A DNA stretch of 64,000 nt. Origin: Streptomyces sp. NBC_00690 (GTDB lineage: Bacteria > Actinomycetota > Actinomycetes > Streptomycetales > Streptomycetaceae). The first letter of the stretch is position 1; each line of letters begins with the position of its first letter. Both the position numbers and the translations under genes were made by a program. The notes beneath the pieces were generated by a model. The model searched no databases, was not told the origin of the DNA, and saw only the letters and a program-made list of their open reading frames with translations. Where the stretch lies: NCBI RefSeq assembly GCF_036226685.1, contig NZ_CP109009.1, positions 5,297,501 through 5,361,500 on the forward strand, in the 5' to 3' direction. Shown here in pieces: positions 52,168 to 54,944 of the stretch.

Positions 52168-52464
52168 ATGGGACTGGTGACCTTCGTCGACGAGACGACA
52201 ACAGGTGAACGACTGGGCTCCGTGGGCGTCGTGGTCGCCGAGGAGCGGCTGCCGCTCGGGGAGCTCATTCGACGACGGGTGAGACAGGAGGCCCCCGGCG
52301 ATGACGTGGACGCCGCCTGCGAGCGCGCCATCAAGGCATTCGGCCGCAACGGCTTCCTGGTGCTCGTGGGAGAGCGGCAGATATCCGAGCTCGACGAGGT
52401 CGTCTGTCTCGCGAAGACGACCGAAGTCACCTTCCTCAAGCTCGTTCCCCTGGTCGGTGGCTGA
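52168..52464 (+). CDS. 98-residue protein resembling a ubiquitin-like beta-grasp, ending Gly-Gly
   Basis: ATG 52168 yields 98 residues that end LVPLVGG followed directly by the stop. Read by eye, the order is strand (1-7), turn, strand (17-24), helix (30-58), strand (63-67) and a last strand (86-93). The C-terminal third is similar in spacing to ubiquitin, with a Gly after the third strand, a connecting segment, then a T-x-V-x-x-L-x-L strand and GG. The stop overlaps the DUF4132 ATG by one nt (TGATG), so the two are coupled. No E1, protease or ligase gene is in the window. The fold and the tag role are inference; it may be an unrelated small protein. Confidence 0.6.
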   Translation: MGLVTFVDETTTGERLGSVGVVVAEERLPLGELIRRRVRQEAPGDDVDAACERAIKAFGRNGFLVLVGERQISELDEVVCLAKTTEVTFLKLVPLVGG

Positions 52465-54944
52465 TGCAGAACTGGCAATCGGCTTACGCCGACATCATGG
52501 CCGTCCGCGCGGCCATCGCCGCGGGGGACCTTCCCGAGCTCGCCGACCTGCTCGTCCAGATCGGCACCCGGGAGAGCAACCAATGGCCGGGCGACCGGGC
52601 CTCCATGCTCAAACGGACGAGTGAACTGCCCGAAGACCAGCGCCAGGAGCTGGCCCGGCACTGGATCAGCCGCTATCACGAGGGGGCCGACACCGCAGTG
52701 GCCCTCAGCGTCATGATCACTCTGATCCGTACCGCCGACCCCGGCGCCGAACTGCTCGAAGTCGAGCGCCAGGAGCGGATCGAGCGCCTCTCCCAGGACA
52801 CCGACTGCTACGACGCCCACCAGTTGGTGGAGCTCATCCGAGCCGAGCAGAAGGCAGGCCGCCGCCTGCCCGGGCCCTTCGTCGCCATGGTCCGACGCTC
52901 CCGACTGGCCGCCTACTGGTCCGAGGACCCTCTCGACGACATCCTTGGTGAGCTGACCGAGCCCGTGCTCAACCCGGGCGAGGCATGGGCGGACCGAGCC
53001 CTCGCCGACGCCGCGACCTGGGGGGAGCCCGGGCGACTGCTGCTCCAGCGGCTCCTGGCAGCCAGGTCCGCGAAACCCACCCGTGCGTGGGAGCGGGCCG
53101 TCCGCGCCCTGGTGGCGGAGATCGGCCCGGGGACCGTCCGGACCGCGGCGCTGGCCTGGTTGGGACTGGTCGGCAGCCCCCGGACGCTCCCGCTCAGAAT
53201 CAGGTACGGATCGGACCAGGAGTACGACGCCTACAACGCCGACGCACTGCGCGGTCTCGCTTGGCTCGCCTCCCTGGTGGAACCGGGGCAGGACACCGTG
53301 CGTGCCCTGGGCGCACTGGTCACGACCTCGTTGCGCAAGCTCCCCGACATAGGACCCAGGAGCCCCAAGGTCGCCAATGCGGCCGTCGTCGCGCTCTCCC
53401 GCACGGAAGGCGAAGCAGCCCTCGCCGAACTGGCCCGACTGTCCACCCGGGTCGTCTACAAGCCCACGCTGAAGATGATCGGCACCGCCCTCGACTCACG
53501 CGCGGAGGACGCCGGCATCTCCCGGGAGGAGATCGAGGAGCTCAGCACCCCCACGTACGGACTGACCACGGTCGGGCGCGGTGAGCGGGCCGTCGGGGAC
53601 GCCACCGCCCTGCTGGAGGTGCGCGGAAGCAAGACACTGCTCTCCTGGCGGACCGCCGCGGGACGGATCGTGAAGAGCCCGCCCGCCGCGGTCAAGAGCG
53701 CCTTCGCGGAGGAGGTCAAGGAGATCAGGGCCGCCGCCAAGGACATCGACAAGATGCTCACCGCACAGTCCGAGCGGCTGGACCGACAGTTCCTCGCCCG
53801 CCGCAGCTGGCCGCAGGGCCGTTGGCGCGAACGCATCCTGGACCACCCACTGGTGGGGACGCTCGCGCGCAGACTGATCTGGACCGTCGACGGTGTGAGC
53901 GCCGCCCTGGACGGCACGGAACTGCGCACGGCCGACGGCGAGCGGGTGAGTGCCGACCCGAGCGCGACCGTCACCCTCTGGCACCCGGTGGGACGCCCCG
54001 ATGCCGAAGCCGCGGCCTGGCGGCACTGGTTGGAGGACCGGGAGATCACCCAGCCGTTCAAGCAGGCCCACCGGGAGACCTACCCCCTCACCGACGTCGA
54101 GCGCACCACCGGGAACTACTCCAACCGCTTCGCCGGCCACTTCCTACGGCAGTACCAGTTCCACGCACTGGCCGCGGCCCGCGGATGGACCTCCAAGCTG
54201 AGACTGTGCGTCGACGACGTCGCACCGCCCCCCTACAAGGAACTGCCCCTGTGGGGGCTGCGCGCCGAGTTCTGGATCGAGAGCGTGGGCGGCCCGGAGG
54301 ACGGCGACCTCAGCTCCTCGGGCGCCTACCAGCGCATCGCCACCGATCAGGTCCGCTTCTACCCCCTGGAAGCCGCGCACAACTGGGCCCACGTCGGTGG
54401 TGGCGCCTATGCGCAGCGCGCCTACTGGCGCAAGGACGGGGCTCCGATACTCGACCCGCTGCCGCTGCACGCCGTACCCGAACTGGTCCTCTCCGAAGTC
54501 CTGCGGGACGTGGACCTCTTCGTCGGCGTGGCGTCCGTCGGCAACGACCCCACCTGGCAGGACGGCGGACCGGGCGGCCACTTTCGCGACTACTGGCAGT
54601 CCTTCGCCTTCGGTGACCTGTCCCGCACCGCCCAGGCGCGCGGCGAACTGCTCACCCGACTGCTTCCCCGGCTCGCGATCGGAGACCGCTGCACCGTGGA
54701 GGGTCGGTTCCTCCACGTGCGGGGCGAACTCCACACGTACCGCATCCATCTGGGGTCGGGAAACATCCTGATCGCTCCGATGGACCGCTACCTCTGCATC
54801 GTGCCGGGGGCCCGGGTCGGTGCGACGGACAGCGGATATCTGCCGTTCGAGGGGGACAACACCCTCGCGGTGATTCTCAGCAAGGCGATGCTGCTGGCCA
54901 ACGATAAGGAGATCACCGACCCGACGATCACCACCCAGCTGTGA
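52464..54944 (+). CDS. DUF4132 domain protein
   Basis: The 826-residue protein has a helical N-terminal two thirds, with repeated Ala/Leu-rich pairs of helices as in HEAT-type arrays (about 150-360). A C-terminal DUF4132 (MolR-type) domain of about 400 residues includes WRERILDHPLVGTLARRLIWTV, QAHRETYPLTDVE, NRFAGHFLRQYQFHALAAARGW and HIGSGNILIAP-like segments. Function of DUF4132 is unknown. It starts on the last base of the ubiquitin-like gene stop. A 16-bp terminator ends the transcript. No membrane segment is seen. Confidence 0.85.
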   Translation: MQNWQSAYADIMAVRAAIAAGDLPELADLLVQIGTRESNQWPGDRASMLKRTSELPEDQRQELARHWISRYHEGADTAVALSVMITLIRTADPGAELLEVERQERIERLSQDTDCYDAHQLVELIRAEQKAGRRLPGPFVAMVRRSRLAAYWSEDPLDDILGELTEPVLNPGEAWADRALADAATWGEPGRLLLQRLLAARSAKPTRAWERAVRALVAEIGPGTVRTAALAWLGLVGSPRTLPLRIRYGSDQEYDAYNADALRGLAWLASLVEPGQDTVRALGALVTTSLRKLPDIGPRSPKVANAAVVALSRTEGEAALAELARLSTRVVYKPTLKMIGTALDSRAEDAGISREEIEELSTPTYGLTTVGRGERAVGDATALLEVRGSKTLLSWRTAAGRIVKSPPAAVKSAFAEEVKEIRAAAKDIDKMLTAQSERLDRQFLARRSWPQGRWRERILDHPLVGTLARRLIWTVDGVSAALDGTELRTADGERVSADPSATVTLWHPVGRPDAEAAAWRHWLEDREITQPFKQAHRETYPLTDVERTTGNYSNRFAGHFLRQYQFHALAAARGWTSKLRLCVDDVAPPPYKELPLWGLRAEFWIESVGGPEDGDLSSSGAYQRIATDQVRFYPLEAAHNWAHVGGGAYAQRAYWRKDGAPILDPLPLHAVPELVLSEVLRDVDLFVGVASVGNDPTWQDGGPGGHFRDYWQSFAFGDLSRTAQARGELLTRLLPRLAIGDRCTVEGRFLHVRGELHTYRIHLGSGNILIAPMDRYLCIVPGARVGATDSGYLPFEGDNTLAVILSKAMLLANDKEITDPTITTQL

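Follow-up and report, generated by a model that had tools for sequence, protein, structure and literature searches.

A predicted ubiquitin-like protein with a Gly-Gly end, encoded in a two-gene unit with a DUF4132-DUF7737 protein in Streptomyces and some other actinobacteria

Introduction

To our knowledge, few bacterial ubiquitin-like proteins (Ubls) that end in Gly-Gly have been described. The well-studied Gly-Gly-ended Ubls have led to pathways, namely those of thiamine, molybdopterin and cysteine, tRNA thiolation, and conjugation. Carriers of this kind are often encoded beside the enzyme that they serve, and their E1 may lie elsewhere in the genome and be common to several of them. Urm1 is both a sulfur carrier and a protein modifier.

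DUF4132 is found from E. coli to actinobacteria. In E. coli the DUF4132 protein is presumably MolR (YehI), the role of which is uncertain. According to the accessible part of one report, a DUF4132 'may be involved' in molybdopterin biosynthesis (PMC8533742). The accessible parts of the DUF4132 literature that we searched, from which subscription titles were mostly absent, mention no ubiquitin-like partner for this domain, and the pairing described here is absent from the Ubl contexts set out in the accessible parts of three papers (PMC1779556; PMC1949818; PMC7159879).

Results

Two overlapping genes

The window analysed here is the whole 64,000-nucleotide stretch from positions 5,297,501 to 5,361,500 of contig NZ_CP109009.1 of Streptomyces sp. 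NBC_00690, a genome of 9.17 Mb with a main contig of 8.83 Mb and 69% GC in this region. A prior reading of the letters alone (the sequence-only reading) had proposed a 98-aa and an 826-aa open reading frame joined by a one-base TGATG overlap, and both frames are as it described. The small protein (98 aa; 52168..52464, forward strand, stop codon included) has a predicted ubiquitin fold and an exact C-terminal Gly-Gly, the last part of the tail FLKLVPLVGG (residues 89–98; 52432..52461, forward strand). This Gly-Gly is encoded mature, so that no processing is needed. The start of the partner gene (826 aa; 52464..54944, forward strand) overlaps the small gene's stop by one base within TGATG. A second copy of the small gene was not found in the host genome, where all other matches had E > 0.5.

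The partner, encoded throughout on the forward strand, comprises a predicted HEAT/importin-like alpha-solenoid (residues 1–360; 52464..53543), DUF4132 (PF13569; residues 400–575; 53661..54188; Pfam E 1e-51, 175.8 bits against a curated cut-off of 27) and DUF7737 (PF24879; residues 723–826; 54630..54941; Pfam E 3.4e-38). Pfam scans of this protein and five other partners recovered DUF5724/HEAT, DUF4132 and DUF7737, all other matches being weak and short of the cut-off, and recognised no known ligase or JAB domain in any of the six. When PDB structures were searched with the partner, the matches were all taken up by the N-terminal solenoid. This N-terminal part seems to be exchangeable: in two distant members (genomes G381 and G097, loci L142 and L143) the partner is about 1670–1690 aa long and carries DUF5724 ahead of DUF4132-DUF7737. 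Another DUF4132 gene of the window's genome (G000:C1:2895552-2896100, locus L010) has a short product, read as about 296 aa, with no DUF7737 match.

Fold and family of the small protein

The AF2 model of the small protein has a beta-grasp topology (pLDDT 75, with low confidence in the tail), in line with the order of strands and helix proposed from the sequence. A Foldseek search of PDB structures returned mostly ubiquitin-like folds, all with E-values > 0.001, the top match being a molybdopterin synthase (MoaD-type) chain (5mpo_B). We regard the protein as having a predicted beta-grasp (ubiquitin) fold.

PF02597 (ThiS) had no match in the 77 and 10 alignment members scanned up to E 10, with the window protein in both sets, and other Pfam families gave only weak matches in these members (best E 0.007). 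Run over the window's own genome, PF02597 found four other places, the small protein's not among them, and hhalign detected no profile similarity between the small protein and these four carriers (probability 0.1; the alignments were shallow). The window's small protein likewise had no NCBIfam match. One search returned 5841 database matches at E up to 0.01, and among the matches listed with a named source the relatives came from Streptomyces and other actinobacteria. We rate the small protein as a new family of Gly-Gly-ended Ubls, and the partner in its two-gene unit as new too.

Most listed relatives (P0017–P0120) have about 130 residues, among them a conserved insert (GLVQP...E..LNGY.LR.PRRID; about 32 aa) that is absent from the window's 98-aa form. 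This insert, largely seen in relatives without Gly-Gly as well, may have a role of its own.

The Gly-Gly end

All 301 distinct proteins drawn from the best 120 of each of three database searches, window protein included, end in Gly-Gly, a set that leans toward near relatives as the searches gave 489, 5841 and 5065 matches. In these same proteins the eight residues preceding Gly-Gly are also under strong constraint, with L at −4 present in all 301, as are the two terminal glycines, and F at −10 and L at −7 in 300. A chance Gly-Gly end is ruled out by this count, against 10 of 1222 other called proteins.

Profile scans of whole genomes gave a similar picture across the order, where 46 places in 45 of 197 genomes carry the small protein: 42 end in Gly-Gly, one in Gly-Ser (G447), and in three the tail could not be recognised (G457, G569, G579). 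The Gly-Ser protein of G447 nevertheless has an intact partner. Phylum-wide, 19 of 396 genomes matched: 10 with a Gly-Gly end, among which the frame of G387 has an internal stop and the protein of G259 is shortened; eight, all from one family (f16), with other ends; and one (G007, E 7.6e-4) judged spurious and kept out of the counts. The relatives without Gly-Gly (L101–L108, L144–L148) have ends such as VLERSVVASGS, and tblastn found no DUF4132 beside them in the five stretches fetched. Thus the exact terminal Gly-Gly (LVPLVGG) noted in the window is confirmed and recurs, with few exceptions, in homologues, which do not show the rarity of Gly-Gly that would have counted against the claim.

Gene arrangement and joint decay

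Neighbours were listed at 80 loci, which had been retrieved by searching for either the tail or the N-terminal motif, a choice of patterns that biases counts of Gly-Gly in this set. At 69 of the 80 the next gene on the same strand is a DUF4132 relative. For 67 of these 69 a possible start codon in the partner's frame falls between −8 and +12 bases relative to the stop of the small gene, with the TGATG overlap in 43. The other 11 loci have no adjacent downstream partner; a relative lies elsewhere in 10 of their genomes, in some < 10 kb away on the other strand, and G591 is the sole genome of the eleven with no partner relative at E 1e-10.

In the order-wide scan, a PF13569 match lies close by on the same strand at at least 35 of the 46 places, in either gene order (the order is reversed in other genomes), with G171 and G524 added by tblastn. 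A DUF4132 fragment lies alongside in G444, G457 and G523, and the partner is on the opposite strand within a few kb in G551 and in G412, the latter with a DUF7737 fragment alongside too. No partner was found in the 11-kb stretches read at G422, G569, G579 and G480; the small protein is truncated or broken in the first three of these and full length, if diverged in appearance, in G480, and elsewhere in the genome a DUF7737 gene or fragment is present in both G579 and G480. In G727 one frame spans the small protein, lacking its first strand, and DUF4132. In G457 (L169), G747 (L208) and G780 (L212) a deletion fuses the start of the small gene to the end of the partner gene; these deletions, together with one in G638 (below), look as though the whole unit is decaying. 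The called proteins from the 80 loci include no stable gene fusion.

The window's flanking succinate dehydrogenase (sdh) genes lie within 10 kb at 62 of the 80 loci, nearly all of them in Streptomyces. Across the 47 loci with both genes and flanking sdh genes, the identity of the latter having been checked for this set, distances between small proteins correlate with those between partners at 0.82. With the flanking sdh genes partialled out r is 0.72, a value that 0 of 999 permutations reached (highest 0.45). Linked neighbours that travel together can correlate without contact, so this correlation favours joint inheritance over binding.

DUF7737 marks the pairing

The sequence-only reading had named the DUF4132 protein as the partner or target. 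Adjacency, co-occurrence, joint decay and correlated evolution strongly support this partnership, which our counts narrow to those DUF4132 proteins that also carry DUF7737. Of the 197 genomes of the order, 123 have DUF4132 and 45 have the small protein, so that DUF4132 in general is ruled out as the mark of a partner; DUF7737, over cut-off in 43 genomes, is the better mark. Both small protein and DUF7737 are found in 42 genomes, including some in which one member is damaged (e.g. G457, G579), and neither in 151. The small protein occurs without DUF7737 in three (G422, G444, G569; all truncated or broken), and DUF7737 occurs alone in one (G417). This co-occurrence has a Fisher p of 4e-38, a value that treats related genomes as independent. 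DUF4132 proteins that lack DUF7737 are found where there is no small protein, so DUF4132 as such can do without it. In one family of this order (f77, G397–G413) DUF4132 has expanded, with up to 12 matches in some genomes, and DUF7737 is found only in G411.

In the phylum sample of 396 genomes, DUF7737 occurs in 10, exactly the ten with a Gly-Gly-ended small protein, of which five are shared with the order sample. The eight genomes whose relative ends otherwise all lack it. One of the Gly-Gly genomes (G097) comes from f16, the same family as those eight. That the Gly-Gly end is kept with DUF7737, with one intact exception, and dropped in relatives without DUF7737 suggests that the end itself is used.

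A blind test started from DUF7737. It was over cut-off in 31 of 394 genomes of the class, and 31 stretches were fetched from the 20 genomes that lie outside the family of the window. Matches to the small-protein profile came from 18 of the 31 stretches and 17 of the 20 genomes; in 13 genomes the locus encodes a separate Gly-Gly-ended protein, in G638 (L195) the small protein has an internal deletion and retains its Gly-Gly end, and G727, G747 and G780, with the joined frames described above, make up the rest. The misses were G662, at a contig end, and G697 and G756, with a broken or cut partner. Thirteen stretches have no small gene, ten of them being further DUF7737 copies in nine genomes with a small gene elsewhere; these extra copies may share that gene.

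E1, JAB and carrier machinery

No E1, E2 or JAB gene had been visible to the sequence-only reading. For E1 and JAB, at the sensitivity of tblastn, this holds for the surroundings of the unit: the genome's own ThiF and JAB queries, which may overlook more distant families of either kind, had no match at E 1e-4 in 100 loci (1.75 Mb). E1-like and JAB genes do lie elsewhere in the window's genome. It has four ThiS-family (PF02597) places, which from sequence and neighbours we take to be two CysO-like carriers, a ThiS by a ThiG-like gene and a MoaD-like carrier. There is also one strong ThiF protein with a rhodanese domain, presumably a MoeZ-like E1, together with one weaker ThiF match. The single JAB match is about 0.46 kb from a CysO-like gene. 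An E1 acting in trans is thus possible given the ThiF-rhodanese protein. The literature searched gave no paper on MoeZ with a sulfur carrier in Streptomyces.

Discussion

The small gene and the DUF4132-DUF7737 gene are a two-gene unit in Streptomyces and some other actinobacteria, and their products very probably work as a pair, as they are kept and lost together. While this pairing is well supported, the chemistry is what we infer. The reading that we put first, to which we give about an even chance, makes the small protein a carrier or modifier: a borrowed E1 would activate it, and the DUF4132-DUF7737 protein would be either its user or the protein on which it is used. In its favour we count the beta-grasp prediction, the constraint on Gly-Gly, the pairing with DUF7737, the overlap or near-overlap of the genes, their joint loss, and an E1 in trans. 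Under such a scheme the mature Gly-Gly would be used chemically, being adenylated and perhaps thiocarboxylated, presumably by the cell's general ThiF-rhodanese (MoeZ-like) E1. A general E1 is proposed because none was found beside the small gene, and activation by a shared E1 is favoured because use of the Gly-Gly end is suggested and because known carriers are often encoded beside the enzyme served and have their E1 in common. The activated tail might then dock into the DUF4132-DUF7737 protein or become attached to it; DUF7737 would be the likely place for docking or acceptance of the tail, and the N-terminal solenoid would serve as a scaffold. The outcome could be sulfur delivery about as readily as an Urm1/SAMP-like attachment to protein.

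Several observations count against a carrier or modifier: the small protein has neither detectable profile similarity to the genome's own carriers nor a Pfam ThiS match; tblastn found no E1 or JAB relative near the 100 loci; G447 has a Gly-Ser end with an intact partner; the single frame of G727 would bury Gly-Gly; and the partnership has gaps, at the 11 of 80 loci without an adjacent downstream partner and the 13 of 31 blind DUF7737 stretches without a small gene.

Some of these observations are what would be expected if the small protein were instead a non-covalent subunit, structural or regulatory, that stays permanently with the DUF4132-DUF7737 protein, its Gly-Gly tail lodged in a pocket and never activated, which we regard as possible, if somewhat unlikely. 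Pairing with one kind of protein, the coupling of the genes and their correlated evolution would all suit such a subunit, as would the lack of an E1 or JAB relative nearby, ten conserved tail residues fit a tail held in a groove, and the Gly-Ser end beside an intact partner in G447 also speaks for this reading. We know of no non-covalent Ubl, however, for which near-absolute conservation of an exact terminal Gly-Gly has been shown. Moreover, the eight relatives of the phylum sample without Gly-Gly sit in genomes without DUF7737. In favour of a non-covalent role, the accessible part of one paper considers that TmoB, RnfH and YukD may serve stability or assembly (PMC1949818).

A bolder form of the carrier or modifier reading, which we consider doubtful, would make the DUF4132-DUF7737 protein a new kind of Ubl-receiving enzyme that takes the activated Gly-Gly from a borrowed general E1, without E2, E3 or JAB, in an undescribed reaction, either sulfur transfer or a self-contained attachment to protein. 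A broad modifier, attached to a wide range of proteins in the cell with the large protein as ligase or receptor, is in our judgement quite improbable: the exact Gly-Gly end, the solenoid scaffold and the candidate E1 in trans are consistent with broad modification, but six partners scanned with Pfam have no recognised ligase or JAB domain, and the genome's one JAB match adjoins a CysO-like gene. Least probable is a conflict or defence module with the large protein as effector and the small one as switch. Its scattered occurrence (45 of the 197 genomes of the order), its frequent decay and the Ubl systems reported in other prokaryotic conflict systems in the accessible part of PMC7159879 would suit such a module. 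Against it, four proteins had no PADLOC match, the phage collection gave no match and the plasmid collection one, an 11.85-Mb Nonomuraea record, and 62 of 80 loci, nearly all in Streptomyces, keep the flanking sdh genes within 10 kb.

The unit ties a family of thousands of database matches to a single uncharacterised domain and so offers a first functional handle for DUF7737, while DUF4132 gains a biochemical context that can be tested. The relatives with neither Gly-Gly nor DUF7737 provide a natural control for the purpose of the tail.

Comparison with known systems

Like the bacterial Ubl conjugation operons with E1, E2, E3 and JAB (e.g. the FtsH-ternary systems, as given in the accessible part of PMC7159879), the small gene places a Ubl in a bacterial gene cluster, but unlike them its unit gave no linked E1 or JAB relative in the tblastn search of the 100 loci. 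With the DUF4132/MolR proteins (YehI in E. coli) the partner has DUF4132 in common; of the 14 control genomes E. coli was the one matched by PF13569, whereas DUF7737 was found in none. The likeness to Urm1 and SAMP, which are Gly-Gly-ended Ubls able to work with one E1-like enzyme, comes here from the fold prediction and the Gly-Gly end, and differs in that the small gene adjoins the gene of one large protein. From ThiS, MoaD and CysO (PF02597) the small protein is set apart by the failure of PF02597 to match its 77 and 10 alignment members, by the lack of detectable profile similarity to four such carriers of its own genome, by a longer fixed tail (FLKLVPLVGG against, e.g., TILPAVAGG and EVLPPFAGG in those carriers), and by a partner, DUF4132-DUF7737, that is no known sulfur-transfer enzyme. 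It resembles these carriers in size, in its predicted beta-grasp fold, perhaps in a Gly-Gly that follows a hydrophobic strand, and in having its gene beside one large partner with a candidate E1 encoded elsewhere.
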